From: Parabacteroides sp. An277
GTDB lineage: Bacteria > Bacteroidota > Bacteroidia > Bacteroidales > Tannerellaceae
Reading direction: 5' to 3'
DNA: 64,000 nt
NCBI RefSeq assembly: GCF_002159645.1
Contig: NZ_NFJB01000002.1
Location: 62,001-126,000 of the forward strand
In this document: piece by piece, positions 33,567-53,441 of the stretch
How positions within the stretch are numbered: the first letter of the stretch is position 1
Layout of the letters: the number at the start of each line of letters is the position of its first letter
Translations under genes and position numbers: made by a program
Notes under the pieces: generated by a model
Database searches by the model: none
Told to the model about the DNA's origin: nothing
What the model saw: the letters and a program-made list of their open reading frames with translations, nothing else

Positions 33567-33595
33567 GAAGCATCCCACGAGGTAGCGGACAAGCG

Positions 33596-34708: not shown

Positions 34709-34736
34709 ATCTATATATCTATTTATTAAACCGGGG

Positions 34737-34744
34737 CAAAGGTA
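34737..34744 (-). promoter_or_regulatory. -7 box of the RND efflux operon
   Basis: Reverse complement TACCTTTG. It faces the AraC gene promoter at 34811-34818, so the two share a ~130-bp control region. Confidence 0.7.
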
Positions 34745-34810
34745 GCGGGAATCCACCGAGGAGAAACGGCCTTTTCGTAAAAGGTATTTGTCAATATCGG
34801 AAGTAACCCT

Positions 34811-34818
34811 TATCTTTG
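34811..34818 (+). promoter_or_regulatory. -7 box of the AraC regulator beside the efflux operon
   Basis: TATCTTTG, 23 nt before the ATG at 34841. Confidence 0.65.
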
Positions 34819-34840
34819 CCATCACTAAATGCAAACAAAT

Positions 34841-36644: not shown

Positions 36645-36896
36645 GATTCCCAAACCGGGAAAGCTCCGCGCAAGCTGCAGCAAGGAATCCCAATTTGGGA
36701 AAGCTCCGCGCAGGCTGCAGCAAGAAATCCCAATTTGGGAAAGCTCCGCGCAGACTGCAGCAAGAAATCCCAACTTGGGAAAGCTCCGCGCAGGCTGCAG
36801 CGAGGAATCCCAACTTGGGAAAGCTTCGCGCAGACTGCAGCAAGGAATCCCAACTTGGGAAAGCTTCGCGCAGACTGCAGCGAGGAATCCCAAAAC
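36645..36896. repeat. Exact 40-bp tandem array between convergent genes, six copies
   Basis: AAGCTYCGCG starts at 36661, 36701, 36741, 36781, 36821 and 36861, always 40 bp apart. The unit has two palindromes, TCCCAAYTTGGGA and a CTGCAG-centred one (GCGCAGRCTGCAGC), roughly 20 bp apart. Variation between copies is mostly single bases. There are no unique spacers. It fills nearly the whole gap between the DUF3737 and nitroreductase 3' ends. Confidence 0.92.
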
Positions 36897-36920: not shown

Positions 36921-37490
36921 TTAAAAACATTCGTAATGCACCTTGCGAGGATCCCATTTATCCTTCGGCGAAGAAACGTGAAAAGGATGCCCCACGACAA
37001 TCAGATTGAGCGGCAGGATATGCGAAGGCAAATGCAACAAACGACGCAACTGCGCCATACGGCTCTCCAACGGATAAATGCCCGTCCAAACAGCCCCCAG
37101 CCCGATGGCATGAGCCGCCAGGAGGAGATTCTCTGACGCAGCCGAACAGTCCTGTACCCAATAGAGCGTGTTGTCTTCTTTATCCAACCGATTTATCCGC
37201 TCATACAAAGCGATATCGCCACAAACGACCACCCCGATACTTCCCCCTTGAAGCATCTTGGCATAAGGCAAGCAACGCCTCAACTCCTCTTTCAAATCCT
37301 CCTCCCGGACAACGATGAAATGCCACGGCTGAAGATTCATGGAACTGGGAGCCGCCATGGCAGCCCGCAGTAACAACTCGATGTCGTCGTTCCCAACCGT
37401 TTCTTCCGTGAAACGGCGGACGGAGGTACGGGAGAGAATGAAAGAAATGCCGTCAGCCGACGTAAACGATGTATCAACAGAATGTATCAT
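36921..37490 (-). CDS. Nitroreductase-family flavin oxidoreductase
   Basis: A 189-residue FMN-dependent NAD(P)H oxidoreductase. Signatures: RTSVRRFTEETVGNDDIELL at the N-terminus (FMN phosphate binding), AAMAAPSSMNLQPWHFIVV, and the GLGAVWTGIYP loop. The ATG at 37490 overlaps the stop codon of the NRPS gene in the ATGA form, so translation is directly coupled to the NRPS. That makes a tailoring role (for example oxidation of the NRPS product) a reasonable inference. A longer start at 37499 is less likely. Substrate unknown. Confidence 0.9.
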   Translation of the reverse strand: MIHSVDTSFTSADGISFILSRTSVRRFTEETVGNDDIELLLRAAMAAPSSMNLQPWHFIVVREEDLKEELRRCLPYAKMLQGGSIGVVVCGDIALYERINRLDKEDNTLYWVQDCSAASENLLLAAHAIGLGAVWTGIYPLESRMAQLRRLLHLPSHILPLNLIVVGHPFHVSSPKDKWDPRKVHYECF

Positions 37491-40400
37491 AAATTCCAAT
37501 GCGTATGAATGATTTCACCTAATTTATGCAAGATGCGTTCCTCCGGGAAACTAAGATGATGACAAGGCATCGTATAAAACGGAGCCTGTGGATAATACGT
37601 TTGCCAAGCCTCAAGGTTCGCCAGGAAAGCATGAAGATAAATCTCCTTCTCTTCCGGCGTACGGAATTCCCCTTCTTCAGGAATAATCAAAGGAGCCGGT
37701 TCGCCTGCCATAACGTGCACAATCGGTCCGTCGTAAATCAATGGCGGGAAGTCTTTAAACAAATCCATAAAAACGGCAATACGCCGCTGGACGGATTCTT
37801 CCTTTACATCTGCATACAATTTAGCATATAAACGCCGGTCGTAAATAGCCTCCATATTAAGCAACGGAATTGGATTCCATTCGGGATGTTTCTTCCGCAT
37901 ATACTGAGAGAAAAGAATGGCTATCTCCGCGCCGCTACAATACCCCGTCAGCATAACTATTTCCCGACCTTTTAATGCAACAGTAAACAAATCCTCGTAA
38001 ACCTGTAACAGATTTTCGAGCGATACCGTTTTACCCCCAGTGAAATATTGATAAAATGATTCGATAATGAAAACTGAGAAATCCTTTTCCAGAAAAGTAG
38101 CGATACGCTCATTGTAAGGATAATATTCTACAAAACCACACATGAACACAACGACAGGCTTGTCTGAGCAGTGCCCTTCAGTCCAAAAGTAAAGATTACG
38201 ATCTATTCGATTGAGCAATGTCCGGATGTTTCGATATTCCTTTACATCGAATGTCGTAAAAAACAGATTCAGTTCGGTAGCCACCCGATTGACAAACAGA
38301 ACCAACTGTTCGTCTGTCATCCCTAAAGCAAATAAGTCGCTCTCGATATCCAAATCTTTACCTAAGACATGACGAGCGATAGAAACCAACTTTTCCTCTA
38401 TCAACTTATCACTGTTATCCATATGCGCATCCACAAAAGCAGCCAACTTGCCAATGGTATTATGTTTATAAATATCCGTAGCCTTAACCGCTATGCCAAA
38501 TGTTTCATGGAGTTTGACGGCAAGTTGAATGATGCCGATAGAATCGCCCCCCAGTGCTTGAAAAGGAGTATTCTTATCTATGAAATGGATATTCAACAAT
38601 TGCCCCCATAACCTGGAAATCTGCTTTTCCGTCAACGAGACAGGAGCCTCATAGCCTTTCGTAGTAGACATCAATTCCGGAGCAGGCAATAATTTACGCT
38701 CCACCTTGCCACTTGCATTATAAGGGAAAGACTTCAATGGAATTATCTGCATCGGAATCATATAATTAGGCAAGTGAGTTTGCAAATAATCCATTAGTTT
38801 GGTCACCGAAAATATACCAGGATCTTCAACCAAAACGTAAGCAATCAATTCTTTCCGATTATCGAACTCATATAACAAGGCAACAGCATCTTTTATTTCT
38901 GAACCAAAATCCATTAACCTCGTTTCTATCTCTCCTAATTCGATGCGATACCCATTCAACTTCACTTGATGATCGGTACGCCCCATGAAGATCAAATGGC
39001 CATCTCCACGACGCATTACTAAATCCCCACTTTTATAAAGCCTCATGTTTAATCCCTTTGCTTTATCTTCATCTGACACAAAAGGATTTAACACAAACTT
39101 TTCCGCATTCAAATCAGGACGATTGATATAGCCATTGGTTAACTTCACTCCCCCAATATACAATTCCCCTACCATATAATTAGGTACTAAATGCATCTGC
39201 TTATCTACTACATAACAAGTTACACCAGGCATCGTTTCTCCTATATCATTTACGTGCGTTCCAGGATGAAGTAATCCATAAGTAGCATCTACGCAATTTT
39301 CTGCGGGTCCATAGGCATTAATGAATCTTCGCCCTTCGCTCCAATAGTCAATAGCCTCTTGCGAAGTCGAATCGCCACCTATAATAATGGTAGAAAGAAA
39401 GGGTAAAGAAACATGAGGAAGCACCGTAAGTAAGGCTGGCGGAATGCTAAAGAAGGTAATCCGTTGTTCTTCTAATAAAGGAAACAACAGCGACCAATCC
39501 TTTCGCATGGCTTCTTGCGGTAAAACCAAAGTCGCACCTACCAAAAATGCAGGAAATATTTCTGGTATGGAAGCATCAAAACAAATGTTTGCAAATTGTA
39601 AAACCCGCGATTGATTTGTCAGTTTCAACATTTCCAGATTTGTCTGAGCCGTTTGATTCAAAGCTAGATGACTTACTGGAATCCCTTTCGGTCTGCCTGT
39701 TGTACCAGAAGTATAAATAACATAAGCAATATCAGAAGGATACAGAACAGGCAAATCACCTTTTCTCCCCGATCCCATTAAATCTTCTATTCGGAGTATA
39801 GGAACAGAACAACGCGAGACCGGCGTGGACAAGGTTGTCAATAACAGAGCAATCCCGCAATCTTGTAGCATAAACTCAAGCCGTTCCACAGGATAATCAG
39901 GGTCAATCGGCACATAAATATTACCCGACTTCAAAATACCCCAGATACCTACAATCATTTCCAGATTCTTAGGAGTCGATAATCCTATACAATGTTGATA
40001 ATATCCTTTTTCCTTCAATGCAATCGCTACGGCATCACTTAACCGATCCAATTCTGCATAAGTGATTTGCCTATTTACAAACACAACAGCCTCTTTATCC
40101 GGATTGTTCCGCACTATTTCTTGGAAACGTTCGACTACGGTTCGTGGAAAAGCAGCTTGATGTAATGCTCGTTCCTCTTTTGCAATCAATTCTTTTTGTT
40201 TGGAGACCGAGAGCAAAGATATATCTTTCAATTTAATATCTGGTGACTCCAAAACCTGCTTCAAAATCACCGTAAACACATTTGACAACATGTAAACAAT
40301 ATTCAAAGACGTTTGCGGACGATAACGGAGCTCACAAGTTAAGCTTTCATTATCCTCAATACCTAATATCAAATCGGCTTCCAACGGAACATGAATATGC

Positions 40401-41500
40401 TTATAAAACTTTGTTTCACAATCTCTAAAATGTAAAGGCAAAGTATAAAATGGAAGTGGATAATTAATAGCCACATTAACTCCCTTCTCTCGTTCCCGTT
40501 TTCCTTCATTTAAGCTACGCAAAATATCTGGATAAAAAGCATAAGGATGTCTCTTTTCCTCCTGTCTGTTTTTATTAACATATTCCAATACGTCACCTAT
40601 CGTCAATTCGTCTTTTCTAAAATCAAACCGAATAGGGAGATCATTTACTAACATACCATATAACGAGGCATATGCTTTAGTACGTAAATTCCAAGTATGA
40701 TCCAATAACAACTCTTCCACTCGCATTGTCCGAGATAAAGTTAATGCCCAAACAGAAGCAAAAAGTCTAAAGGGAGTGGTTTTTTCCTCTTCGCAAAAAA
40801 CTTGCACTTTTCTAAACATTTCACTTCCTAAAGAAAAAGTGTATACATAATCCTGAGGACCTTTTTCATCCTTTCCATCATGTGGAACAGGGACTGCCAA
40901 AGGAATATTTGACATATATTTCTTCCAATATTCTACATCTTCCTTCTGACATTGGCCATACCTCTCCTCAAACTGATGATTAAATCTATTCAACATCTCG
41001 GTTTGATCAAATAGCTCATATTTTTCATCCAAAAGCTGATTATAAATCATCGATAAACGATTGAAAAATAAGGTTAAAGTATGACCATCCATAATAATAT
41101 GATGAAACACGAAGTAGAGATATAACTGGTTTTCCGCATGGATAATATAACAACGGCAAGGAATTTCTTTTTGTAAATCAAATGCTCGTCCAGCTAAATC
41201 AAGAATCAGTGCATCCACTTCGTTTTTCTTACTTACCGTAAACTCTTCAGGTTTCAGGCAATTATTGGCATTGGGAACAAAATAAGGATTACCCTGTTTC
41301 TCCTGTATTGTGGAACAAAAAGGCAAATACTCTAAAGAAATCAAACGGCATGCTTCACGAAATATAGGGATAGATATATTTCCTTTTACCGTAAAAGCAC
41401 AATTTGTATCATTATATTCTGCTGTAGGATACTTCAACAAATTTCCGATCCAGTACATTTGTTGGATGGGATTTAGAGGTATTTTTTGCTGACTTAGCAT
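37487..41500 (-). CDS. Single-module nonribosomal peptide synthetase (C-A-PCP-[carrier-like]-TE)
   Basis: A 1337-residue enzyme. Condensation domain (about 5-430) with intact HHIIMDG at 133-139. Adenylation domain (about 450-935) with YTSGTTGRPKG (596-606), AYGPAENC, GELYIGG, YKSGDLV, GRTDHQVKLNGYRIELGEIE and catalytic Lys932 in NASGKVERK. Peptidyl carrier with ALGGDSIG (Ser987). Then a carrier-like segment LFALGMTDEQ (1056-1065) lacking the serine. The thioesterase has nucleophile motif GYCSG, so Cys1188 in place of Ser, and His1314/1315 near the end. By alignment to GrsA the substrate code reads roughly D-A-P-S-I-G-A-V-D-K; I do not assign an amino acid. ATG 41500 (MLSQQKIPLNPIQQMYW) is chosen; the longer frame starts with TTG. 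It starts 28 nt after a TonB receptor gene and overlaps the nitroreductase. Product unknown; no phosphopantetheinyl transferase is seen. Confidence 0.92.
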   Translation of the reverse strand: MLSQQKIPLNPIQQMYWIGNLLKYPTAEYNDTNCAFTVKGNISIPIFREACRLISLEYLPFCSTIQEKQGNPYFVPNANNCLKPEEFTVSKKNEVDALILDLAGRAFDLQKEIPCRCYIIHAENQLYLYFVFHHIIMDGHTLTLFFNRLSMIYNQLLDEKYELFDQTEMLNRFNHQFEERYGQCQKEDVEYWKKYMSNIPLAVPVPHDGKDEKGPQDYVYTFSLGSEMFRKVQVFCEEEKTTPFRLFASVWALTLSRTMRVEELLLDHTWNLRTKAYASLYGMLVNDLPIRFDFRKDELTIGDVLEYVNKNRQEEKRHPYAFYPDILRSLNEGKREREKGVNVAINYPLPFYTLPLHFRDCETKFYKHIHVPLEADLILGIEDNESLTCELRYRPQTSLNIVYMLSNVFTVILKQVLESPDIKLKDISLLSVSKQKELIAKEERALHQAAFPRTVVERFQEIVRNNPDKEAVVFVNRQITYAELDRLSDAVAIALKEKGYYQHCIGLSTPKNLEMIVGIWGILKSGNIYVPIDPDYPVERLEFMLQDCGIALLLTTLSTPVSRCSVPILRIEDLMGSGRKGDLPVLYPSDIAYVIYTSGTTGRPKGIPVSHLALNQTAQTNLEMLKLTNQSRVLQFANICFDASIPEIFPAFLVGATLVLPQEAMRKDWSLLFPLLEEQRITFFSIPPALLTVLPHVSLPFLSTIIIGGDSTSQEAIDYWSEGRRFINAYGPAENCVDATYGLLHPGTHVNDIGETMPGVTCYVVDKQMHLVPNYMVGELYIGGVKLTNGYINRPDLNAEKFVLNPFVSDEDKAKGLNMRLYKSGDLVMRRGDGHLIFMGRTDHQVKLNGYRIELGEIETRLMDFGSEIKDAVALLYEFDNRKELIAYVLVEDPGIFSVTKLMDYLQTHLPNYMIPMQIIPLKSFPYNASGKVERKLLPAPELMSTTKGYEAPVSLTEKQISRLWGQLLNIHFIDKNTPFQALGGDSIGIIQLAVKLHETFGIAVKATDIYKHNTIGKLAAFVDAHMDNSDKLIEEKLVSIARHVLGKDLDIESDLFALGMTDEQLVLFVNRVATELNLFFTTFDVKEYRNIRTLLNRIDRNLYFWTEGHCSDKPVVVFMCGFVEYYPYNERIATFLEKDFSVFIIESFYQYFTGGKTVSLENLLQVYEDLFTVALKGREIVMLTGYCSGAEIAILFSQYMRKKHPEWNPIPLLNMEAIYDRRLYAKLYADVKEESVQRRIAVFMDLFKDFPPLIYDGPIVHVMAGEPAPLIIPEEGEFRTPEEKEIYLHAFLANLEAWQTYYPQAPFYTMPCHHLSFPEERILHKLGEIIHTHWNL

Positions 41501-41528
41501 ACTATTTTCCTTTCTTCTCAATTGGGTT

Positions 41529-43943
41529 TTAAAATAAATAAGATAGCGTAAACATAAAATTCCGACCTTGTTGGGGTTGGGGTACCAGCGTACTTCCTCC
41601 TTGATAATAGTCTGTATCGAATAAATTATAGATGCTCACCGAGGCCGTAGCTCGTTTATAATGGTAATCTAAACCGGCATTCACGATGGCCCGCGCGCCC
41701 AGTTGGTATTCCGGGTCATAGACTATTTGGTCGCCTAAATAGATCTGATTGGAAACCAAGGGCGCATATTGTTTCGTCTGGAACGATAGGTTTCCTCTTA
41801 CTTTCAGCTCATGTTCTTTCCGTTTCAGGACCTGATAAGCGCACAAACAGTTCATCAAAAAATCAGGAACAGCGTTGATATGCGAGCCTGTTACCGTATA
41901 GTTTGTACTATTAATCAAGTGCTGATAGGAAAAGTTCATCATTGCATACCACTTGGCTTTCTCGTAGGAAACGGTACCTTCCAGGCCACATACTTTCAAC
42001 GAACCGGCGTTGGATAACAAATCGCCTGCGTCATTAGGCACGCCATAACAGACAATATCTTCCAGCGCATTGTAATAGAAATTCACTTCATACTTCAGTC
42101 CTTTTTCTTTAAAAGACTGGTCAAAGCTGAACTGGACAGCGTTCATCTGTTCGGCATCCAACTTATTTCCTCCCGAATAAGTGGCAATTGTGGTCGCGCG
42201 GTAGAAGAAGGGCGCATCCACAAACGAGTGTGAATAGCCTAACTTCAGGTGGGAATTGGAGTTAATATAGTAGATGAATGACAAACGAGGTGAGAATTCA
42301 TTCAACTTTTTACCGTTGTATCGATGTTTATAATCGTACCGAAGGCCGCCATTGAATATCAGTTTTTTGCCAAGAGACGCCTTTAATTGGGTGAATACAG
42401 AGGCATTCAGTTCGTTGCCTAACAGGAGCGAGCGGTTGGCATCCGAGTAGGTGATGATAATCCGGTCGTAGTGGTCGCCTATTATCAAGGTATTGTCCTT
42501 CATGGTATAGTTCTCTATTTGCGTGCCAAAAAGCAGGTTTCCTTTCCATTTCTCCGTCTGGAAATGATAGATAGCCTGCGCTGAGCCGCCATAAACATAG
42601 TCGTTCCATGCCTGGACCTGGTATACTCCGTTTTCGCCCATGCCCACTTTTATCGTACTATCCAGTACTTCTCCGGGACCAACAGGCAGGTAACGGTCTC
42701 CTGCCAAGAGCGTGTCGGCGGCTACATCATAGTAGGAACAGCTTTCGATATCGATGAAGGCACTGACTTTTCCTGACCATTTTTCGCCAGACTTCTCGTA
42801 GTTTACCTCTCCATGGGTAGCCTGTCGCGCATGTCCGGGTTTGGATCCATTAATTATCCGATAGCGGTCATAATCATAAAGGCTCGGGTAGCGCACCGTC
42901 ACATACGACGGTATTTTCTTGGCATATTGCGTGTTAAACAGCACGTTTATGTCCTTCCATCGCGCGGTAAAGCCGATGTCGTAGGCGGGTTTGTGGTTGT
43001 ATCCTCCGATGTACATGCTTCCGGGGCGTAATACTTTCCCGTAGAATCCTTCATCGTCTGCGTTCAGATACCGTTCCTCGCCGCGGGAAATATAGACCGA
43101 AGCCCAGCCCATAAAGTCAAAATCAAAGCTGCCTTTTCCCAAAAGGAAGTCGGCCCGGTAGGTCTGATTGTTCCCTCCTGCCAGCGAAACCTGCGCACCA
43201 TCTACCTGAAACCCCTTCTTTGTGATGATATTCACAACCGCAGTCAGCGCCACATTCCCGTATAATGACGAAGCCGGACCGCGCAAAACTTCTATCTGCT
43301 GCACCTTCTTTAGGCTGGTTCTGAAGTCTGGCGCTTCCGAATTAGTGGCGCGGCTGTTCAGCCGATGCCCGTCTAGTAGGATCAATATCTTCTCTTGCGA
43401 GGAAGAATAGACGCCATGCAGGGCTACATTCAGCTCACTTCCTGATATCAGGCTCATGCCGGGGACGTACAATGTCAGTAGTTCTGCCAATGTTTTGGCG
43501 CCGGAATCCTGTATCATCTGTTCGGTGATGACCGTCACAGGCACCGGTGCTTCGTCTATGCTCTCGGCCTGTTGGGAGGCGGTGGTGATGGTCGCGTTCC
43601 CGCCTTTCTTGAATCTTTCTACGATATCAGCGAAGCGGAGCGGGTCGTGAATCGTCACATTATAATAAGGGTCCTCCTTCAACAGGAGCGAAATATAGCG
43701 CTCGGCTTCCGGCATGTTGTCCTTATTCAGGTAGCATAAGGCCAGTAATCGGTACGCGCTCTCCTTGAGTGTGCCGCGGAAATTGCCTATCTGTTCCTCC
43801 AATAAGCTTATCGAAGCGTCGAAATGTCCGATGCCATATTCCGCTTCGGCCTGCAGGTATCGCTGCCGAAGGTCGCTATTTTCTTGCCCGATAGCGGCAC
43901 AGGGGAGCAAGAGGAGGAGTAGGTATACGAACCAGGTTCTCAT
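41529..43943 (-). CDS. TonB-dependent receptor with N-terminal TPR-like extension
   Basis: An 804-residue outer-membrane receptor: signal peptide MRTWFVYLLLLLLPCAAIG, then about 90 residues of helical TPR-like repeats (AEYGIGHFDASISLLEEQIG, YRLLALCYLNKDNMPEAERY). The plug domain follows at about 125-240 (PVPVTVITEQMIQDSGAKTL, VQQIEVLRGPASSLYGN, VVNIITKKG), then a 22-strand-type barrel ending in FMFTLSYLF. It has neither a SusC-type carboxypeptidase-like domain nor a SusD partner, so it is more like vitamin/siderophore/colicin-type receptors. Its start overlaps the histidine kinase stop (ATGA), and the NRPS follows. Uptake or sensing of the NRPS product is an inference. Confidence 0.92.
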   Translation of the reverse strand: MRTWFVYLLLLLLPCAAIGQENSDLRQRYLQAEAEYGIGHFDASISLLEEQIGNFRGTLKESAYRLLALCYLNKDNMPEAERYISLLLKEDPYYNVTIHDPLRFADIVERFKKGGNATITTASQQAESIDEAPVPVTVITEQMIQDSGAKTLAELLTLYVPGMSLISGSELNVALHGVYSSSQEKILILLDGHRLNSRATNSEAPDFRTSLKKVQQIEVLRGPASSLYGNVALTAVVNIITKKGFQVDGAQVSLAGGNNQTYRADFLLGKGSFDFDFMGWASVYISRGEERYLNADDEGFYGKVLRPGSMYIGGYNHKPAYDIGFTARWKDINVLFNTQYAKKIPSYVTVRYPSLYDYDRYRIINGSKPGHARQATHGEVNYEKSGEKWSGKVSAFIDIESCSYYDVAADTLLAGDRYLPVGPGEVLDSTIKVGMGENGVYQVQAWNDYVYGGSAQAIYHFQTEKWKGNLLFGTQIENYTMKDNTLIIGDHYDRIIITYSDANRSLLLGNELNASVFTQLKASLGKKLIFNGGLRYDYKHRYNGKKLNEFSPRLSFIYYINSNSHLKLGYSHSFVDAPFFYRATTIATYSGGNKLDAEQMNAVQFSFDQSFKEKGLKYEVNFYYNALEDIVCYGVPNDAGDLLSNAGSLKVCGLEGTVSYEKAKWYAMMNFSYQHLINSTNYTVTGSHINAVPDFLMNCLCAYQVLKRKEHELKVRGNLSFQTKQYAPLVSNQIYLGDQIVYDPEYQLGARAIVNAGLDYHYKRATASVSIYNLFDTDYYQGGSTLVPQPQQGRNFMFTLSYLF

Positions 43944-44779
43944 GCTTTCATCGGGATTATGAGGGTAAATATCGTAAAGGAGCCGGCTTCCGAGTCGAAT
44001 TCGATGCGCCCATGGTGTTTCTCTTCGATGATGTTTCGCGTGATATACATGCCCAATCCCGTGCCTTGTCCGGTGGGTTTGGTGGTGAAGAAGGTCTCGA
44101 ACAGGCGCTTTTTCACCTCTTCGGTCATGCCGGTACCATTGTCTTTGATGGAGATGCAGAGCTCTTTATCCTGCCGGTACACGCGGATTTCGACCGTCGG
44201 ACGATAGTCTACGCCCACCTGCTTCGCCCGTTCCCATACCGCATAGCAGGCATTGTTCATGACATTCAGTACGGCGCGGCTCAGGTCTTGCGGCACGACG
44301 GGCTGAGGCGGCAGTCCTTCTTCGTAGTGTTCCTGAATGGAAATGTTGAAATTCTGGAGGCTGGCCCGCATCGCATGGTAGGAGAGCCAGACATATTCAT
44401 GCACCAGCTGGCAGATGTCCGTCGGTATGAACTCGTCCTCTTTCCCGCGTGAATAGAGCAGGATATGCTGGATAATGCTGATGGCCCGGTCGCCATGTTC
44501 GCGTATCTTCTGCAGGTTTTCCTGCAGGTTGCCTTGTATATCTTGGATATCTTCCCAGTCTTCTTCGCCAATCTCCGCCTCGTACGGAGCCAAATCTTCG
44601 TTCAATTCGCGCAGCAAATCGCCCGAAAGTTTACTGAAGTTAATGACAAAATTTAACGGATTCCGTATCTCGTGCACAATCCCTGCGGTGAGTAATCCGA
44701 GCGTTGCCATCTTCTCTTGTTCCTTTACCTGTCCTTGCAAACGGACTATCTGCTCCTTTAGTTCTTCTATCGTATCCAT
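43940..44779 (-). CDS. Soluble sensor histidine kinase
   Basis: A 279-residue kinase with no membrane segment and no recognisable sensor domain except a short N-terminal coiled coil (IEELKEQIVRLQGQVKEQEK). The H-box GIVHEIRNPLNF gives phospho-acceptor His36. The ATPase domain shows MNNACYAVWERA (N-box), IKDNGTGM, ETFFTTK and GTGLGMYITRNII. It therefore looks catalytically complete. No response regulator is adjacent; the nearest receiver domain is on the SpoIIE phosphatase at 55482-56648. It is coupled by ATGA overlap to the TonB receptor and is the first gene of the four-gene NRPS operon, behind a palindrome array. Confidence 0.92.
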   Translation of the reverse strand: MDTIEELKEQIVRLQGQVKEQEKMATLGLLTAGIVHEIRNPLNFVINFSKLSGDLLRELNEDLAPYEAEIGEEDWEDIQDIQGNLQENLQKIREHGDRAISIIQHILLYSRGKEDEFIPTDICQLVHEYVWLSYHAMRASLQNFNISIQEHYEEGLPPQPVVPQDLSRAVLNVMNNACYAVWERAKQVGVDYRPTVEIRVYRQDKELCISIKDNGTGMTEEVKKRLFETFFTTKPTGQGTGLGMYITRNIIEEKHHGRIEFDSEAGSFTIFTLIIPMKA

Positions 44780-44843
44780 ATGCGTTGTATTTTTCAGTTG
44801 TTATTTAATTCATTATTAATCAGCATATTTAATATACCCACCC

Positions 44844-44985
44844 ATGTGTCTTAAAAAAAGCTATTGTCTTTAACAAAAAAGACGCCTGTCTTTTTCAAAA
44901 AAGACGACTGTGTTTTTCCAAAAAGACAACTGTCTTTTTTCAAAAAGACGACTGTGTTTTTTTGGATTCACAGGTGTCTTTTTTT
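44844..44985. repeat. AAAAAGAC/GTCTTTTT palindrome array, exact 22-bp period
   Basis: GACGCCTG, GACGACTG, GACAACTG and GACGACTG start at 44881, 44903, 44925 and 44947, exactly 22 bp apart. Each is flanked by A-runs and T-runs, giving AAAAAGAC-n-GTCTTTTT hairpins; degraded units lie on either side. It overlaps the 3' end of the propeller sensor gene and precedes the histidine kinase. It could act as serial terminators in either direction. Confidence 0.88.
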
Positions 44986-47900
44986 AGGGAGATAACGGGC
45001 TTGTTTTTGACCCCTCGGCGCGATTACGCTTTTTCTGACTTATTGGGATAATTATAGTAAATTGTGTATATTTATCTTTCTCGGAGGCTACCGTGATATC
45101 CCCGCCGTGGTTCAGGATAATTTCCCGGCTGAGGTACATCCCGACACCGACGGCCTCGGAGGTCGTCTTGGTGGTGAAGAAGGGGTCGAACACCTTCCCG
45201 ATGATGGATTCCTCGATGCCAATCCCGTTGTCGTAGACGGTGATGATTACGTTTTCCTGCGTTTCGTCGGGCGAAACCGTCAGTCGTATGAGCGGCTGAT
45301 AGTCCTCTCGCTGGCATTTCTTCTGCAGGGCGTAGATGCTATTGGCCAGTATGCTCATGATGGTCTTACTGAATTGCTCGGCGTCTACCTCGGCAATCTG
45401 GACCAAATCCGGGTCGGGCGCTTCCGTCCGGATGCCGCATTCCGCAATCTCTTGCGCGTAATAGGTGTGAAGCATTTCCATGTTTTTCCGGCAAATCGCC
45501 GCGATGTCCATCACCGAAACCTGCCCTTTCCATTCCTTCAGCATCTCCTCCATGGCCTTGAGGATGCGGGTCGTGTTCAAGCCGTGCGCCTCTATTTTTT
45601 GCAGATTCGTGCGGAGCATTTCCAAGATATCGGTTGAGTCGTCGTAGATATCCGGCGTCATGCGTTCCTCGTCCTCTTTCAGATTTTCGGCCAAGTCCTT
45701 GATTAATCCCAGACTTAAGTGCGAGAAATTGTTCACATAGTTCATAGGATTGAGGATGCGGTCGACGAGTCCCTTCGTCAAAGTACCCACTGTCGCCATC
45801 TTTTCCTGCCGGATTAGTTCGTATTGCGCCTTGCTCAGGTCGTCTAAAGCCACCTCCAATTGCTTCGATTTCTCCTCGATTTTGTCTTTCTGCTGGCGGA
45901 GTTCGGAGGTACGCTGCGCCACAATCTGCTCCAAACGCACCTTTTCCTGGAGCAAACGACGCATGCGTAACCGGATAATGAGCATGATAAATATCGCCAA
46001 AAGCAGCACATATCCCACGACGCAATACCACTTCAGGAAGAAAGGATAGTGCACGTAGAGCGCCAAAGAGACAGGCGCCGTCTCACGGCCATACCGGTCT
46101 CGCGCCATCACCTCGAAGGTATAGCTGCCCGGACGAGGATTGGCATAATGCGCCGAAGTCGTGGTGCTCCAGTCCGACCACGCCGCACCGCTGTGGAAAC
46201 GATACCGGTATTCCACGTCGCCCAGCGCGGACAACGCATCCGAAGAAAAGCTGATACGGATATCGCGACTGTGGCTTTGGAAGTCGTACCGGCTGCTGGG
46301 TAAATCCGTTTCCAGCCGGTCTTCCCCACTAAATCCGCCCCAAAGGATGGAATCTTGGTCCAGTATAATGCGGCGAATATAGGTGTGATTCGTCCGCTGG
46401 TAGTCCGGTTCCTGCTGGTTCCACCGGCTGTGTAGCAAACCAAAACTACCCCCCAGCCAGATATTCTCGCCCTCGATGTCCATCGCCAATACCGGTAAAT
46501 GATGCACCGGATAGAGGAGTTCGTTCCAGCGAGAAAGCCCTTCGCTCGAAGCAGCCGGGTCGTAAACGCGCAACGCCTTGCCTTCGTTGTTGGTAAACCA
46601 GAGGCGTTCCCCCTCCGGATAGACGAACTGAGGATAGGAAGCCTCCGCCAGCCACCCGGACATTTCCGGCTTTTCTACCAGCGATTGGGAGGTGGCATCC
46701 CACTCAAACAGGCCGACGTGGCTCTGCACATACAGGTGTCCGCCCTGCTGATACAGCGTATTATTATAGCGTGCCTCGGCGCCGGACGCGTTCTTAGGCA
46801 CTACAAAAATGTATTCTTTCTTGTCCTCGCTCAGCCGAAACACCTGCCCGTAGATGTTCCGAACCAGGAGTGTTCCTTCCGAATCCTGGTAGAAATGGGT
46901 GGCTTTCTCCACCTTATTACATAATGTACGCGCGCGCGTACCTATATAATATATACCGTCTACCTCGCCGGCATAGCAGCTCCCGTCCGGATTAATAAAG
47001 CAGGAAAGGGTATGCGCCGAACTGAGTTGTTCCACCTTCCCCGCATGGATGCGGAATAAACCTCCGGCCGTAGCAGCATACACCTGCCCGTCCTTGTCTG
47101 GCTGCAGTTGCCAACAGGCGTAATGAATATCCCCTACCGGCTGAAATTTAGCCCCTACTTTTTCATAAATCCCCTGCAAGGTGCCCACTAATAAGCGTCC
47201 ATCTACGTGGCAAACAGACTGCACTTCGCCCAGCAACCCCTCGGTCTCGGCAAAGCGAGTATAGGAGGAATGGACATCCACCAGGAACAAACCTTGGTCC
47301 GTTGCGCCCCACACGTATCCCAAACTATCCGCATAAATTTGGTTTACATTATTGTTACATAATCCATTCTGTTCGGACAAAACATACAGTTCCCGGCCTT
47401 CCCGGTCTAAAGCCACCAGGCCTTTCCCGGCCGTTGCCAGCAGGGTGATGCCGTCGGGCAGGGCTAATTTTTGGTTTACAGGCAGACCTTGGTAATAAAG
47501 AGGCGCGGGCTGCCGGCTGGTTCGCACGATGAAATCCTGCATGGAATCGTCCTCGAGCGTGATGTCCCCGATGGAAGTTTCCACACAAATCCGTCCCTCT
47601 TCTTCGTAGATATCGGTCACTTCGCCCAAAAAACCCTTGTTGCGCTCCGAAAAAATCAGTTGCAATTCCAAAGAACCACGCCGGTCCGACGAGAGAAACC
47701 CGAACAGGTTGTAACCACCTACCCATATTCTTCCGTTCCGGTCCTTGTAGAGTTGGGTAATCCGGAAGATGCCGGGCGCATGGAGAATATGCCAGTCCGC
47801 CTGGTCATAATAGAGCAGACCTTCGAAATTAGCCACGTAGATGCGGCCCTTTTCATCGCCTACTACATCGAAGTTCCGATTGTGCGCTTGGTAGGTAGCA

Positions 47901-47995
47901 GGCAGGTAGTTGGTGAAAAACGGCAATCCGCCTTCCCCTTTCAGCGTCCCTATGCCCAGCAAGCATACGATCAATATGCCTAAAAACCGTCTCAT
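44984..47995 (-). CDS. Two-component propeller sensor with GHKL ATPase but Asp in place of the phospho-His
   Basis: A 1003-residue membrane sensor: signal MRRFLGILIVCLLGIGTLKG, a periplasmic beta-propeller (YDQADWHILHAPGIFRIT, IYADSLGYVWGATDQGLFLV), a Y_Y_Y domain (about 570-650, PRPGSYTFEVMARDRYGRET), a membrane helix near 665-685, a coiled coil, and a kinase-like region. Where kinases have GIxHEIRNPL, this protein reads GLVDRILNPM: Asp745 (codon GAC at 45761-45763) replaces His. The ATPase motifs remain (ILANSIYAL, YDNGIGI, DPFFTTK, GVGMYLS). So it may bind ATP but cannot autophosphorylate on the usual His. It lies 4 nt after the WD40 gene. Ligand unknown. Confidence 0.9.
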   Translation of the reverse strand: MRRFLGILIVCLLGIGTLKGEGGLPFFTNYLPATYQAHNRNFDVVGDEKGRIYVANFEGLLYYDQADWHILHAPGIFRITQLYKDRNGRIWVGGYNLFGFLSSDRRGSLELQLIFSERNKGFLGEVTDIYEEEGRICVETSIGDITLEDDSMQDFIVRTSRQPAPLYYQGLPVNQKLALPDGITLLATAGKGLVALDREGRELYVLSEQNGLCNNNVNQIYADSLGYVWGATDQGLFLVDVHSSYTRFAETEGLLGEVQSVCHVDGRLLVGTLQGIYEKVGAKFQPVGDIHYACWQLQPDKDGQVYAATAGGLFRIHAGKVEQLSSAHTLSCFINPDGSCYAGEVDGIYYIGTRARTLCNKVEKATHFYQDSEGTLLVRNIYGQVFRLSEDKKEYIFVVPKNASGAEARYNNTLYQQGGHLYVQSHVGLFEWDATSQSLVEKPEMSGWLAEASYPQFVYPEGERLWFTNNEGKALRVYDPAASSEGLSRWNELLYPVHHLPVLAMDIEGENIWLGGSFGLLHSRWNQQEPDYQRTNHTYIRRIILDQDSILWGGFSGEDRLETDLPSSRYDFQSHSRDIRISFSSDALSALGDVEYRYRFHSGAAWSDWSTTTSAHYANPRPGSYTFEVMARDRYGRETAPVSLALYVHYPFFLKWYCVVGYVLLLAIFIMLIIRLRMRRLLQEKVRLEQIVAQRTSELRQQKDKIEEKSKQLEVALDDLSKAQYELIRQEKMATVGTLTKGLVDRILNPMNYVNNFSHLSLGLIKDLAENLKEDEERMTPDIYDDSTDILEMLRTNLQKIEAHGLNTTRILKAMEEMLKEWKGQVSVMDIAAICRKNMEMLHTYYAQEIAECGIRTEAPDPDLVQIAEVDAEQFSKTIMSILANSIYALQKKCQREDYQPLIRLTVSPDETQENVIITVYDNGIGIEESIIGKVFDPFFTTKTTSEAVGVGMYLSREIILNHGGDITVASEKDKYTQFTIIIPISQKKRNRAEGSKTSPLSP

Positions 47996-47999
47996 TTCT

Positions 48000-49556
48000 T
48001 TATTGATTTAATTGTCTCATGAGCCGACGAGGCAGGTTATTACCTATATAATAGTTCCACTCGTCGTCTGTAAAGTCCCGTTTCAATCCCTTTTGGATGC
48101 GCTTCGCCATCCGGTCCGGCGAAATCATGATATGCGATATGGCTCCACTTTCGTCGCCAATCCAAAGGGTTTCGTCGGGGCCGAGCGCCAGACAATAGAC
48201 CCAAGAGGGCAATGTCCGAACCGGGACAGGCTCCTGTTTGGTCGCATTCACATCCCACATGTTTACCGTACAATCGTAACTTCCCGAAAGAAGATGATGC
48301 CCATGAAAGAGCAACTGGGTGATTTTCGAGCGATGTCCCGTCAGTTTCCGCATCGAATTTCCGGCCAAATCGACCAGATAGATATTCCCATTTTCCGTAC
48401 CTGTTGCCAACTTTTGCAGCTCCGGAGACCAGGCACACGCGGTGACCGTCTCGCTGTTCCAACGCTCTAACGGCGTTAATGCTCCGTCCAGACCGACACG
48501 ATGCAACGTGCTTCCCTCCCCATAAGCAAACCATTGTCCCTCTTTTTCGGACAATGCAGTTAGCTTTTGAGGCAAAGGAATCGTCCTGACGATTTGCTTT
48601 TGGGCTTTATCAAAGAAATAAAGATGGTGCTCGGATGCTAAAAGCAAACGCTCCGCATCGAAAGGACACACTCGCATCCATCCGCTTGTCTCGGGCAAAA
48701 GGAGGGTTTCCACCGGGGTATTGGGGGAAAATAGGCACATCTTTCCCTCATAACTCAGGGCATAAATCGTTTGGTTGGTATCGACATATACATCCCGGAA
48801 GCTGCAGGTCGAGTCGCTAAAGAGGAGCTGATCGCGTATCTCTCCCGGCAGGCCGTGCCAACGTTTGACCTCTCCATACCGACTTACAGAGACATAATCT
48901 CCCGCCGAATCCGGGCAAGAGACGATACGCGACACGCCTCCTCGGTGGACATTCTGCGTCTGAAAGCTCCGGCTGTTCAGGATAAGCGCATTGAAAATCA
49001 CCGGTAAATAGACATTTCCCCGGTACTCTGTCGTGAAAGACCACGAAGCATATGCCAACAAAGCCGACGCATCCCGGTTGCCCGCCTGATACTGTACCGC
49101 CGAAAGGGAAGCCAGCACGCGCCCCAAAGCCACGTTACTTAACGTATCCGCCACGGTACGCGCATACTCCGCCCTGCGCTGCTGTTGAATAGCCCGTTCG
49201 CGTTGTTCTTCCGCCATATTGCGGGCCTCTACCATGTTTCGGGCGAACTCCTGCGCGTTACGCTGCTCTTCTTCGGCACGAAGACGCATGCTATCGGCCA
49301 CACTCATCTGGAACACGGCCTCTTCGCGTTGCTTCTCGGCAATATCCTTCTGCTGGTAAGCAATGTCTTCCATCTGCTGGCTGATGCGTTCGACCACGTA
49401 TGATTTTCCTTCATTCTCCTGATAACTTTCCAACTCAACCCGCCTTGCTTCCGATTCGCGAGACAATGTATCGTTTTCATACCAGGCAAAACCCAACGCC
49501 AAGAGCAGCACGCCGCACACGCTTCCCCATATATAATCTTTCGTTTCTATCTTCAC
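48000..49556 (-). CDS. Membrane-anchored WD40-repeat protein with coiled coil
   Basis: A 518-residue protein: membrane helix near the N-terminus (YIWGSVCGVLLLALGFAWY), a long coiled coil to about residue 150 (DIAEKQREEAVFQMS, RERAIQQQRRAEYARTV), then a WD40 propeller (CAWSPELQKLATGTENGNIY, TQLLFHGHHLLSGSYDCTVN, SWVYCLALGPDETLWIGDES) and a C-terminal FTDDEWNYYIGNNLPRRL tail like those of bacterial signalling WD40 proteins. The start is the GTG at 49556, 8 nt after AGGAGG (49565-49570, minus). It lies 4 nt before the propeller sensor. Probably a scaffold or sensor; partner unknown. The 110-nt gap upstream holds no recognised promoter box. Confidence 0.85.
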   Translation of the reverse strand: MKIETKDYIWGSVCGVLLLALGFAWYENDTLSRESEARRVELESYQENEGKSYVVERISQQMEDIAYQQKDIAEKQREEAVFQMSVADSMRLRAEEEQRNAQEFARNMVEARNMAEEQRERAIQQQRRAEYARTVADTLSNVALGRVLASLSAVQYQAGNRDASALLAYASWSFTTEYRGNVYLPVIFNALILNSRSFQTQNVHRGGVSRIVSCPDSAGDYVSVSRYGEVKRWHGLPGEIRDQLLFSDSTCSFRDVYVDTNQTIYALSYEGKMCLFSPNTPVETLLLPETSGWMRVCPFDAERLLLASEHHLYFFDKAQKQIVRTIPLPQKLTALSEKEGQWFAYGEGSTLHRVGLDGALTPLERWNSETVTACAWSPELQKLATGTENGNIYLVDLAGNSMRKLTGHRSKITQLLFHGHHLLSGSYDCTVNMWDVNATKQEPVPVRTLPSWVYCLALGPDETLWIGDESGAISHIMISPDRMAKRIQKGLKRDFTDDEWNYYIGNNLPRRLMRQLNQ

Positions 49557-49667: not shown

Positions 49668-50234
49668 TTACGCCTGCTTACCGTCTATTGCCCGGAGAAT
49701 CTCGGAAGCCAGCAGATAACAATGCCCGCCTGTCCGCGCCGAAATCAGGTCATCATCCACCACGACATCGGCGTCCACGTAGTCCACGCCATAGTTCTTT
49801 GCATCGCCCAAGAGGTTGTTATGCACGGTCATCCGCCGCCCCTTTACCAACTCAGACACGGGTGAAAGCAACCAAAGACCGTGACAAATCACACCCTTGA
49901 CGATATCCTTCCGCGCGAAAACCCGCTGCAAGAAAAGACAAGCAGGCGGAAGTTTCGATACGTCTTCCGTATAGCGGAGGCGATCAGCTACCATACCTGC
50001 CGGAACAATCACGGCAGCATAGTCGTCTAACGCCTCATCGCTCAGCGATTCAAAACTTTCATTACAATAGAAAGGAGCCCGGTATTCATGCCCACTAAAG
50101 GTGATGCTCTCGTTTCCCCACAAGCGGGAAAGGAAATGTACCTCATACCCAGCCTCCTTGAAACGGAACTGATAGTAAAATATCTCGTTCTCGTAAAAAT
50201 CACTCTCAATGAGTATTCCTATTTTATTTTTCAT
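49668..50234 (-). CDS. DJ-1/PfpI family protein
   Basis: A 188-residue protein of the class I glutamine amidotransferase-like fold. The nucleophile elbow is VKGVICHGLWLL with Cys117-His118, and the family's N-terminal acid is in IESDFYENEIFYY (Glu10 or Glu15). Relatives are proteases, glyoxalases, chaperones and oxidative sensors; the exact activity cannot be read. The second ATG (50234, MKNKIGILIE) fits the fold start best; the first is at 50240. It overlaps the 3' end of the RsbW-like kinase gene, so it belongs to that operon. Confidence 0.88.
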   Translation of the reverse strand: MKNKIGILIESDFYENEIFYYQFRFKEAGYEVHFLSRLWGNESITFSGHEYRAPFYCNESFESLSDEALDDYAAVIVPAGMVADRLRYTEDVSKLPPACLFLQRVFARKDIVKGVICHGLWLLSPVSELVKGRRMTVHNNLLGDAKNYGVDYVDADVVVDDDLISARTGGHCYLLASEILRAIDGKQA

Positions 50235-50640
50235 CCGCATTGATTCTTTTTTTAATGGTCAAAACATTCTCATCCTGGATACGTTCATACGAAACCTCAT
50301 CCATCATCTGAAGTGTCAAAAAGATACCCAATCCGCCTATCGGACGGTCTTCCAACGGAAGAGAGACATCGGGCATCTCCTTCTCCAACGGATTGAACGC
50401 CACGCCACCATCCCGGAAGCGAATCGTAAGGCCGATGTCTGTCCGTTCTATTTCCACTACCAAATACCCCTCGACATCCGACGGATACGCATAGCTTACG
50501 ACATTAACGACCCACTCTTCACATACCAAATGGACGGCATAAAGCGCTTTACCACACGATGCCACCTCCTCCGTTTGGAGGATGGCATCGATGATTTCCT
50601 CCGTTCGACCTGCAATAGGTTGAAAACGTAACCGTCTCAT
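50224..50640 (-). CDS. RsbW/SpoIIAB-like anti-sigma serine kinase (HATPase_c_2)
   Basis: A 138-residue GHKL ATPase. Motifs: EEWVVNVVSYAYP (N-box), FRDGGVAFNPL (G1-like) and GGLGIFLTLQMMDEVSY (G2-like). In partner-switching systems this kinase phosphorylates a STAS protein on Ser and binds a target when the STAS protein is phosphorylated. The two STAS genes on either side of glgX upstream are the obvious substrates. Bacteroidetes lack SigB, so the target is unknown. It is separated from the upstream STAS gene by 6 nt. Confidence 0.92.
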   Translation of the reverse strand: MRRLRFQPIAGRTEEIIDAILQTEEVASCGKALYAVHLVCEEWVVNVVSYAYPSDVEGYLVVEIERTDIGLTIRFRDGGVAFNPLEKEMPDVSLPLEDRPIGGLGIFLTLQMMDEVSYERIQDENVLTIKKRINADEK

Positions 50641-50646: not shown

Positions 50647-50958
50647 CTACTTGCTAACGAACGAAATATAGTTCTGCAATCCTGTCATCTCAAACACGCT
50701 ACGGATATCAGCTCCGCAATTCACAAATTCGATGACCGGATTCCCGCCCAGCTTCTGCTTCGCGAAAATAATGGTACGAATACCGCTACTTGCGATATAA
50801 GCCAGCTTTGTCGCATCGAAAACTACCTTTTCGATACCCTTTCCTTTATACTGATTGAGTTCTTCCATCAATGCCGGAGCATTGTTGGTGGTGAGTTGTT
50901 CACCCAGGACGATGCTCAACATATTACCGTCCTGTTGTACTGTAAATTGATTATCCAT
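50647..50958 (-). CDS. STAS-domain anti-sigma factor antagonist, copy 2
   Basis: A 103-residue SpoIIAA/RsbV-like protein: TVQQDGNMLSIVLGEQL, EKVVFDATKLAYIASSGIRT and IRSVFEMTGLQNYISFVSK. The serine pair in IASSGIRT marks the kinase target site. It is located between GlgX and the RsbW-like kinase. Its partner is probably the kinase immediately downstream. Confidence 0.92.
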   Translation of the reverse strand: MDNQFTVQQDGNMLSIVLGEQLTTNNAPALMEELNQYKGKGIEKVVFDATKLAYIASSGIRTIIFAKQKLGGNPVIEFVNCGADIRSVFEMTGLQNYISFVSK

Positions 50959-50996: not shown

Positions 50997-53123
50997 TTAC
51001 TTCGGTCGTTTTCCAACCAATATCATGATAGAGCGTGGACCAACCAGAATCTCATGCTGATTATCGAGCAAGCATTCCTCACCCGGTTCGCAAATATCGT
51101 CCGGAGCAGCCATTTCCGTATTGGCAAATACATGCCATGCCAACTCTTCAGGCAGCTGAGGAAGTTCGAATCCATGCATGTCCCAATGCATATTCATGGC
51201 TACATAAATAAAATCATCAGGCACCCCGTCTGTCTCCGCATACCGCCCGTTCAGCATAAAGGCTGCGGTCAGATTGTTATATCCGGTATCAGGACGCCAT
51301 GCTTTTACACCGTGCCATGAGAAATCGGGATATCCCAGATTACGGTAATCACAATGCCCGAAATGATATTCGAAACGCAATGCTTTATGAGCCTGACGGA
51401 AGCGGATAATCTTACGGAAGTAATTATAAATGTCCTCATTCTTCTGCAGATTCGTCCAGTCGAGCCATCCGATTTCATTATCCTGACAATAAGCATTGTT
51501 ATTTCCATATTGGGTATTCCCCATTTCGTCACCCGATAATATCATCGGAATACCCTGGCTTACCATCAACAAGGATATTGCATTCTTTATCTGTTTATGA
51601 CGCAGGTAATTGATTCCCGCATCTTCACATTCGCCTTCCCAGCCGCAATTCCAGCTATTGTTATTGTCTTCTCCATCCCGGTTGTCCTCGCCATTCGCTT
51701 CATTATGCTTGCCATTATATGACACAAGGTCCATCAATGTAAATCCGTCATGGGCTGTAATAAAGTTCACACTTGCCTTAATGCCTCGGTTTTGAGAGGC
51801 ATACAAGTCGGCTGAACCTGCGATACGTTCTTTCACATCGCCCAATACATGCTCATCACCTTTCAGGAACCTACGGATGCTATCCCGGTATTTCCCGTTC
51901 CATTCCGCCCAGCGCCCCCATGAAGGAAATGCACCTACCTGATACAAGCCTCCGGCGTCCCATGCCTCAGCTATCAATTTTGTTTTACCCAAAATAGGGT
52001 CATGAGCCAATGACTCCAGCAAAGGCGGATTAGGCATCGGACATCCATTCTGGTCACGTCCCAAGATAGCCGCCAAATCGAAACGGAATCCATCCACGTG
52101 ATAATCGGTTACCCAATAACGCAAGCTTTCTACAATCATATCCCGCACATTGGGGTTATTGCAATTCAACGTATTTCCGCAACCACTGAAATTGAAATAA
52201 TATCCATCCGGTGTCAGCATATAATAAGTCTTATTATCAATACCCCGATAAGAGATATAAGGACCTTTTTCATTCCCCTCTGCCGTATGATTAAATACAA
52301 CATCCAGTATAACTTCAATCCCATTCGCATGAAGCTGTTTAATGAGGTTCTTCAACTCGTCGACCTGCATGCCAAAACGCCCCGTCGAAGCATAAGCCGC
52401 TTTGGGAGCAAAAAAACCAACATTACTATATCCCCACACATTATATAACATGCGCCCGTCAACCGGTGAAGGTTTACTATTCTCAAACTCATCGAATTCA
52501 TGGATAGGCATCAGTTCCACACAATTCACACCCAGTTCCTTCAAATAAGGGATCTTCTCGGCAATACCTGCAAAGGTTCCTGGATGTTTTACATTCGCAT
52601 TAGCACCACACGTGAAATTACGAACGTGCATTTCATAGATGACCAATTCATTGACAGGCGTTTCCAATGGTAAATCATCTTCCCAATCGAAATCATCACA
52701 TACGACACGAGCCCGGTATTGATACACATTATCCCAATCCGGTTGAACGCCCCAGGCATCTCGACCAGCGATCAACTTGGCGTATGGATCCATCAATATC
52801 TTGGTCTTATCGAAACGATGTCCCTCTTTAGGATTCCAAGGTCCATCCATGCGATATCCATATTCAATATTTTCGAAATCAAGATCAAATACCATCATGG
52901 AAAATACATTTCCCATCTTAAATTCCTTTTGAAAAGGAATCTCCACAAACGGTTCCGGCTCATGATTATGAAAAAGCACTAACGTACAAGCCGTAGCATA
53001 GCGCGAATAAACTGAAAAGTTCACCGCATTACCCATGACGGTCGCTCCAAAAGGATACGGCCGTCCAGTACGTAACTTGAGCCCTTTATACTCATGTGTC
53101 GGAAATAAATCAACTCGTTGCAT
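50997..53123 (-). CDS. glgX: Glycogen debranching enzyme GlgX (isoamylase-type, GH13)
   Basis: A 708-residue enzyme cleaving alpha-1,6 branches of glycogen. An N-terminal CBM48-like domain (PFGATVMGNAVNFSVYSRYA, GYRMDGPWNPKEGHRFD) precedes the GH13 barrel. The catalytic nucleophile is in HVDGFRFDLAAILG, the acid/base Glu in LIAEAWDAGGLYQVG and the third acid in FITAHDGFTLMDLVSYN. The long acidic insertion around EANGEDNRDGEDNNNSWNCG is usual for GlgX. No glgC, glgA or glgP is nearby; the gene is instead enclosed by two STAS genes, suggesting its supply or activity is tied to partner switching. Confidence 0.95.
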   Translation of the reverse strand: MQRVDLFPTHEYKGLKLRTGRPYPFGATVMGNAVNFSVYSRYATACTLVLFHNHEPEPFVEIPFQKEFKMGNVFSMMVFDLDFENIEYGYRMDGPWNPKEGHRFDKTKILMDPYAKLIAGRDAWGVQPDWDNVYQYRARVVCDDFDWEDDLPLETPVNELVIYEMHVRNFTCGANANVKHPGTFAGIAEKIPYLKELGVNCVELMPIHEFDEFENSKPSPVDGRMLYNVWGYSNVGFFAPKAAYASTGRFGMQVDELKNLIKQLHANGIEVILDVVFNHTAEGNEKGPYISYRGIDNKTYYMLTPDGYYFNFSGCGNTLNCNNPNVRDMIVESLRYWVTDYHVDGFRFDLAAILGRDQNGCPMPNPPLLESLAHDPILGKTKLIAEAWDAGGLYQVGAFPSWGRWAEWNGKYRDSIRRFLKGDEHVLGDVKERIAGSADLYASQNRGIKASVNFITAHDGFTLMDLVSYNGKHNEANGEDNRDGEDNNNSWNCGWEGECEDAGINYLRHKQIKNAISLLMVSQGIPMILSGDEMGNTQYGNNNAYCQDNEIGWLDWTNLQKNEDIYNYFRKIIRFRQAHKALRFEYHFGHCDYRNLGYPDFSWHGVKAWRPDTGYNNLTAAFMLNGRYAETDGVPDDFIYVAMNMHWDMHGFELPQLPEELAWHVFANTEMAAPDDICEPGEECLLDNQHEILVGPRSIMILVGKRPK

Positions 53124-53129: not shown

Positions 53130-53441
53130 TTATATTTGATTCTGACACGCTTCTACCGTATCAAAGTATTTGAAGAAATGTTCGAATCCCGTAATACTCA
53201 TCACTTCGCGCACTTCTTTCGACACACCTACCAAATACAAGTTCAATCCACTAGATGCCGCTACTTTATAGGTATATAGCATAACACGGAGACCTGCACT
53301 TGAAACATAGGTGCATTCAGATAAGTCCAAGATCACATTCTTATTCTGATCTAAGATAGAGAGAATAGCTTGTTGTTCTTCTTTGCTCGATGAAGCATCC
53401 AAGACGGAACCTACTTTATGAACTTCTGCATTCATCTTCAT
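53130..53441 (-). CDS. STAS-domain anti-sigma factor antagonist, copy 1
   Basis: A 103-residue SpoIIAA/RsbV-like protein: VILDLSECTYVSSAGLRVML with the phosphorylatable serine pair, and VREVMSITGFEHFFKYFDTV. It is only modestly similar to the second STAS protein at 50647-50958. It abuts the epimerase stop codon with no gap and precedes glgX by 6 nt. It may answer to the SpoIIE phosphatase upstream or to a different kinase. Confidence 0.92.
   Translation of the reverse strand: MKMNAEVHKVGSVLDASSSKEEQQAILSILDQNKNVILDLSECTYVSSAGLRVMLYTYKVAASSGLNLYLVGVSKEVREVMSITGFEHFFKYFDTVEACQNQI

Follow-up and report, generated by a model that had tools for sequence, protein, structure and literature searches.

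Does a bacterium that assembles a small molecule with a single synthetase also listen for that molecule at its own surface? The question is raised by four genes in a 64,000-nucleotide stretch of Parabacteroides sp. An277 (contig NZ_NFJB01000002.1, positions 62,001 to 126,000 of a near-complete assembly; G000:C14:62001-126000 in our labelling, where G000 is this genome; hereafter the window), which encode, all on the minus strand, a sensorless histidine kinase (HK), a TonB-dependent receptor (TBDR), a nonribosomal peptide synthetase (NRPS) and a nitroreductase-family flavoprotein (Table 1). The original prediction took them for a make-and-sense operon, with the nitroreductase as tailoring enzyme and the kinase as the sensor of a recaptured product. 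Its genes, coordinates and spacing are all confirmed: HK and TBDR overlap by an ATGA at 43943-43940, NRPS and nitroreductase likewise overlap by an ATGA, and 28 nt separate the TBDR stop from the NRPS start. Its functional proposal survives in part, since NRPS and TBDR form a conserved pair that has been exchanged as one block and is linked to the kinase in most species, but the nitroreductase falls away as a tailoring enzyme and the single kinase gives way to a multi-gene sensory module. The reading that we favour, with middling confidence, is that of a make-and-sense operon: an older sensory module, coupled to the TBDR, into which a variable cassette of NRPS and receptor has been fitted.

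The arrangement is more than chance: five further, more distant species have the same HK-TBDR-NRPS order, with NRPSs 27-29% and TBDRs 40-44% identical to those of the window. Across a genus sample of 39 genomes (species), TBDR homologues (E <= 1e-30) and the family of NRPSs with a cysteine thioesterase (Cys-TE) each occur in 11, with 10 shared (10 with both, one with the TBDR only, one with the NRPS only, at a contig end, and 27 with neither; Fisher p 2e-7). The two genes are adjacent in nine genomes, that is, wherever the assembly permits (both genes sit at the ends of contigs in G031, and the G033 contig stops within the NRPS), and in seven of these nine species the NRPS is only 27-29% identical to the window's. 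Of the 10 species bearing both, 7 have the sensor kinase linked to them. The TBDR occurs in 11 of 393 genomes sampled across the order.

Two species, G012 and G037, share a 5,833-bp block of 98.4% identity that starts within the TBDR gene, where identity rises at residues ~121-150 at the start of the plug, directly after a TPR-like N-terminus, and ends 29 nt past the NRPS stop. Outside this block the alignable DNA is 74-79% identical, and protein identity is 36% for the TBDR N-terminus, 74% for HK, 52% for the propeller sensor PROPHK, 47% for the WD40 protein and 76% for the phosphatase RR-PP2C (all described below). Both junctions are internal to contigs in both genomes, that in the TBDR is in frame, and the two NRPS genes differ by 36 synonymous and 20 non-synonymous codons. 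Because the block is nearly identical and the flanking N-terminus and sensor genes far less so, plug-barrel and NRPS travel as a pair; the exchanged unit is the plug-barrel plus the NRPS, and the TPR-like N-terminus stays with the sensor genes. Among seven linked species, distances correlate at r = 0.95-0.98 between barrel and NRPS and at r = 0.28 between N-terminus and barrel, values that are partly driven by the G037 swap itself. In pairs without a recent swap divergence climbs along the operon, as between G018 and G012 (identity of 83% for HK, 78% for the TBDR N-terminus, 90% for the plug, 60% for the barrel, and 38%, 50% and 39% for the condensation (C), adenylation (A) and thioesterase (TE) domains). 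A TBDR on a 3.6-kb contig of G031 (L060, G031:C216) is 99% identical to that of G007, the NRPSs of the two being 81-89% identical; this mismatch may reflect a receptor-only exchange or a mis-binned contig, and we set it aside as evidence of exchange since it may be contamination of a metagenome-assembled genome.

The system also exceeds four genes, as same-strand genes upstream of HK run to 56648. In relatives the operon reads RR-PP2C (a response regulator receiver with a SpoIIE-type PP2C phosphatase), WD40, PROPHK (a Reg_prop/Y_Y_Y sensor with a kinase-like C-terminus), HK and TBDR, followed in most by the NRPS; the place of WD40 upstream of PROPHK is conserved, and RR-PP2C lies directly upstream of WD40 in loci L028, L053, L054, L055, L064, L090 and L097. 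The H-box of PROPHK reads L[IV]DRILNP (VDRILNP in the window), with Asp in place of the phosphoacceptor His and the ATP-binding motifs kept, a substitution present in 10/10 aligned full-length copies and likewise in two copies from a different family and in the short paralogues. The soluble kinase that follows it, whose copy in the window shows no apparent membrane segment, keeps its His (HEI[RQ]NP, or HEVQNP in G432 of the other family). Judged from these motifs, PROPHK likeliest acts through the soluble HK as a sensor pseudo-partner. Further upstream, a putative partner-switching set of PP2C, STAS and RsbW-like ATPase genes is present within one locus (window 50224-56648).

Parts of the module also occur without TBDR or NRPS in other genomes. 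The soluble kinase has a homologue in 24 of the 39 genus genomes, and short His-less kinase paralogues adjoin it across the genus, often with RR-PP2C (L061, L062, L063, L065, L068, L070); at several of these loci a TPR protein of ~1000 residues stands alongside, without TBDR or NRPS. Between HK and PROPHK the window carries five 22-bp units with internal complementarity (44854-44961; 5 x 22 bp by Tandem Repeats Finder, TRF), with a predicted hairpin of -48.9 kcal/mol (z -4.4). The same spacer is a different repeat-rich sequence in G027, and most other species have no gap there.

The N-terminal extension of the TBDR is TPR-like by a sub-cut-off TPR_16 match, and Pfam finds no STN domain in it; single-sequence AlphaFold models of this domain reached a predicted local distance difference test score (pLDDT) of 76 in one of five and about 50 in the rest, too poor to use. 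Neither a FecR-type anti-sigma factor nor an extracytoplasmic function (ECF) sigma factor is among the neighbour genes scanned by Pfam, the operon holds no SusD, and no sigma factor was seen beside the PP2C. The plug is closest by sequence, among solved structures, to CirA/FepA-type receptors.

On the synthesis side, the NRPS has intact motifs in its C domain (HHIIMDG), its first thiolation (T) domain (LGGDSI) and the A core, as well as a TE; its second T-like unit is without the serine (LFALGMTDEQ, written T*). The enzyme holds the sole Condensation domain of its genome, which has one match to the phosphopantetheinyl transferase family, in an open reading frame with a WCAKE motif. Searched with the NRPS as query, the genome yields, apart from the enzyme itself, nothing beyond weak A domains of the acyl-CoA-ligase-like kind, and no further A or C domain of NRPS type; the operon has no dihydroxybenzoate (DHB)/salicylate ligase or hydroxamate genes, the latter not having been searched genome-wide. 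The TE cysteine is invariant in the family as GxCxG, along with an invariant His, and the TE profile aligns to that of EntF with Cys in place of Ser, a weak match (E 0.0027); a single-sequence AlphaFold model of the TE was too poor to use (pLDDT 46).

Three architectures occur in the family: C-A-T-T*-TE (G000, G027), C-A-T-TE (G030, G018, G012, G028, G037) and A-T-C-A-T-TE (G007, G023, G031), the last with Gly at the position of the amino-acid-binding Asp235 in its first A domain. The pocket residues of the A domain, DAPSIGAVD in the window, take the further forms DVWYIGGVY, DAWWYAAVC, DAWLWAGVC, DAWLCGLVV and DAEPIGTVD; they are constant within close relatives and in the swapped pair G012/G037 and differ between other lineages, so the products probably differ between lineages too. 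A scan of the genome_contigs set found distant NRPSs only, and NRPSs seen in other families (G237, with a Ser-TE; G442, with a reductase-like end) do not belong to this NRPS family. A conserved, secreted-looking protein of 577-583 residues follows the two-A-domain NRPS (L023 11816-13549, L025 4340-6073, L026 189-1940). We rejected the 577-residue gene downstream of the NRPS in G007/G023 as an exporter, as it has no Pfam match (L023 copy) and a signal-peptide-like start; also rejected was a resistance-nodulation-division (RND) efflux operon in the window (28841-34834, with a divergent AraC-type regulator), which was not found beside the syntenic operon in G027 and probably has nothing to do with the NRPS. 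The earlier statement that there is no exporter stands for the loci examined.

The nitroreductase also occurs apart from the NRPS. In family f56 (G093, G430, G432) the order is isoamylase, RsbW-like ATPase, DJ-1, RR-PP2C, WD40, PROPHK, HK, one to three TBDRs and nitroreductase, with the NRPS absent and, in G432, a STAS gene upstream; the nitroreductase copy, 58-62% identical, directly follows the TBDR. Beside the NRPS it is found only in G000, G027 and G028, and it is missing from 7 of the 10 NRPS loci. We therefore reject it as a tailoring partner; it looks like an ancestral operon gene, probably not involved in tailoring. These gene orders suggest that the nitroreductase belongs, with the sensory module and the TBDR, to the older set and that the NRPS is a lineage-specific insert between TBDR and nitroreductase; alternatively, the NRPS may have been lost in family f56. 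Just downstream of the window's nitroreductase a 40-bp unit is repeated in tandem 6.3 times (36643-36893), and G432 carries three tandem divergent TBDRs (L097 10497-19478) with an ATPase-like gene (GRRRIGKT motif) between the first two.

Table 1. Features of the operon and its upstream genes (positions in the window)
Feature	Positions	Strand	Basis
Nitroreductase-family flavoprotein, 189 aa	36921..37490	-	Pfam PF00881, E 1e-25
NRPS, C-A-T-(degenerate T)-TE, 1337 aa	37487..41500	-	Pfam; ATG start
Thioesterase region, cysteine nucleophile GYCSG, Cys1188 (codon 37939-37937)	37490..38203	-	Family alignments
TBDR, 804 aa	41529..43943	-	Pfam Plug + TonB_dep_Rec
TBDR N-terminal TPR-like domain	43596..43886	-	TPR_16 E 5e-5, below Pfam curated cut-off
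HK, sensorless histidine kinase, 279 aa, intact HEIRNP box (His36)	43940..44779	-	Pfam HisKA + HATPase_c
Intergenic region HK/PROPHK, 204 nt, 22-bp tandem/inverted repeats	44780..44983	-	Hairpin prediction; TRF
PROPHK, Reg_prop/Y_Y_Y sensor with kinase-like C-terminus	44984..47995	-	Pfam
WD40-repeat protein; N-terminal hydrophobic segment, coiled-coil-like stretch before repeats	48000..49556	-	WD40 E 1e-13; sequence
DJ-1/PfpI protein; also upstream of module in family f56 operon	49668..50240	-	
RsbW-like ATPase (HATPase_c_2)	50224..50640	-	Pfam PF13581, E 6e-19
STAS-domain antagonist	50647..50958	-	Pfam PF01740
Isoamylase-like glycoside hydrolase; syntenic in family f56 operon	50997..53123	-	
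Second STAS-domain protein	53130..53441	-	Pfam PF01740, E 2e-18
RR-PP2C, response regulator receiver + SpoIIE-type PP2C phosphatase	55482..56648	-	

From the observed gene order, co-occurrence, cassette exchange and residue substitutions, we infer product recapture and self-sensing by two joined units. The older one would be a sensory module made of WD40, the transmembrane His-less propeller protein, the soluble His kinase and RR-PP2C with its STAS and RsbW-like partners, joined to the TBDR through the TPR-like periplasmic N-terminus of the latter; the other would be an exchangeable specificity cassette of TBDR plug-barrel and C-A-T-TE NRPS with its cysteine TE. One amino acid would be coupled by the NRPS to a single acyl or carboxylic unit, which presumably comes in trans, since the search turned up no further A or C domain of NRPS type; release of the product, perhaps in cyclised form, would fall to the Cys-TE. 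Having left the cell, the product would be recognised by the matching barrel, and the TPR domain would relay receptor occupancy to the propeller pseudokinase and the soluble HK, from where it would go to RR-PP2C and on to STAS/RsbW-like partner switching. We favour this make-and-sense reading because barrel and NRPS match like lock and key, and the N-terminus behaves as a link to the sensor. More tentatively, the operon may serve as a self-recognition (quorum-like) system of Bacteroidales, where species-specific NRPS products would be read by a TBDR with an exchangeable plug-barrel, the TPR domain would feed the kinase pair and PP2C switch, and a swap would change the 'dialect' while the wiring stays.

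Several observations weigh against the make-and-sense reading. The clearest evidence comes from a single recombination event, that between G012 and G037; coupling of TBDR to kinase is a step that we infer; and neither an exporter nor a donor-loading enzyme was found in the operon. In G007, G023 and G031 the sensor module is not linked to the TBDR-NRPS pair, so sensing need not go through this particular kinase. Conversely, G017 has the whole module and the TBDR with no trace of this NRPS (tblastn at locus L053), and G093 and G432 (97-98% complete) lack Condensation domains altogether, though module, TBDR and nitroreductase are present, so that receptor and sensor can serve other ligands. The TBDR of G017 nests with those of G007, G023 and G031 (support 100/99), which suggests that the NRPS was lost there.

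Some of these observations also feed competing explanations. Separation of the TBDR-NRPS pair from the kinases in three species would suit a metallophore (siderophore-like) made and taken up by the pair, the kinases regulating by envelope or nutrient cues and not by the product. As in siderophore clusters, a cognate TBDR adjoins the NRPS and co-diversifies with it, the pattern of pyoverdine/FpvA (PMC11734721), and both the resemblance of the plug to CirA/FepA/BtuB-type receptors and the remotely EntF-like TE point the same way. A lone C-A-T-TE module, however, cannot alone build a typical chelator when its genome offers no other A or C domain of NRPS type, and the search matched no ligase of the dihydroxybenzoate type; nor would a metallophore account for an HK that shares 4 nt with the TBDR gene and is so often linked to it, or for a TPR-like N-terminus that co-segregates with the sensor. 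On balance we regard it as rather unlikely.

The operons of G017 and of the family of G093/G432, with module and TBDR and no NRPS, would instead fit sensing of a nutrient or foreign ligand, with a hitch-hiking, co-regulated NRPS whose product (for example, an inhibitor) the TBDR does not bind, as would the status of nitroreductase, DJ-1 and isoamylase as older neighbours. This is an explanation to which we give little credence, as it accounts neither for a barrel that moves together with the NRPS and leaves the N-terminus behind nor for the constant adjacency of TBDR and NRPS once the kinases are separated from them. Self-protection, where the product inhibits rival bacteria, the TBDR acts in immunity or re-uptake and the kinases answer damage, seems very improbable: fast diversification and cassette exchange suit antagonism as well, and a GxCxG-type Cys-TE yields a reactive beta-lactone in ObiF1 (PMC6668435), but the pair has no conserved companion gene of immunity-like or exporter type.

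Among known systems, the make-and-sense operon is closest in logic to that of pyoverdine in Pseudomonas, where NRPS product and its own TBDR diversify together in lock-key coevolution (PMC11734721), and to TBDR surface signalling, where occupancy is relayed inward via a periplasmic N-terminal domain (PMC9249621, PMC11637429). Here, too, there is an NRPS-TBDR pair and a proposed N-terminal relay, although there is only one NRPS module. In the FpvA-FpvR-PvdS system, this relay runs from an STN-type signalling domain to a FecR-type anti-sigma factor and an ECF sigma factor, whereas the window has a TPR-like domain whose proposed partners are a His-less propeller kinase, a soluble kinase and a PP2C response regulator. 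Hybrid two-component systems (HTCS) for carbohydrate sensing in Bacteroides have the same Reg_prop/Y_Y_Y periplasmic sensor as PROPHK, but here there is no fused AraC output or receiver and no SusD, the kinase His is missing and the proposed output is PP2C/STAS. PP2C phosphatase, STAS antagonist and HATPase_c_2 kinase constitute the RsbU/RsbV/RsbW partner switch of Bacillus and have counterparts together here, with the differences that this PP2C carries a receiver, presumably fed by histidine kinases, and that no sigma factor was seen adjacent. As for synthesis, obafluorin synthetase ObiF1 (C-A-PCP-TE-MbtH, with PCP a peptidyl carrier protein) has a GXCXG motif in its TE that supports beta-lactone release (PMC6668435). 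Like ObiF1 and EntF (C-A-PCP-TE), our NRPS has a single elongation module, sharing the GxCxG Cys-TE with the former and aligning by TE profile with the latter, but no MbtH domain, aryl carrier or DHB ligase was found. A cyclised or strained product is a possibility raised by this analogy and not a claim, because the TE resembles that of ObiF1 only remotely.

We found no description of this combination of NRPS, TBDR and sensor kinases in this bacterial order in the open-licence literature. With the cassette swap, the matching of ligand to receptor is open to direct test, and the His-less and His-bearing kinases, as a pair, offer a clean case for phosphotransfer between unlike partners. If the make-and-sense reading is true, a TonB receptor can pass its signal to a kinase pathway where others use a sigma factor, and Bacteroidales would have a diffusible signal of their own, read by a transporter in the outer membrane, together with a natural series of receptor/synthetase specificity groups.

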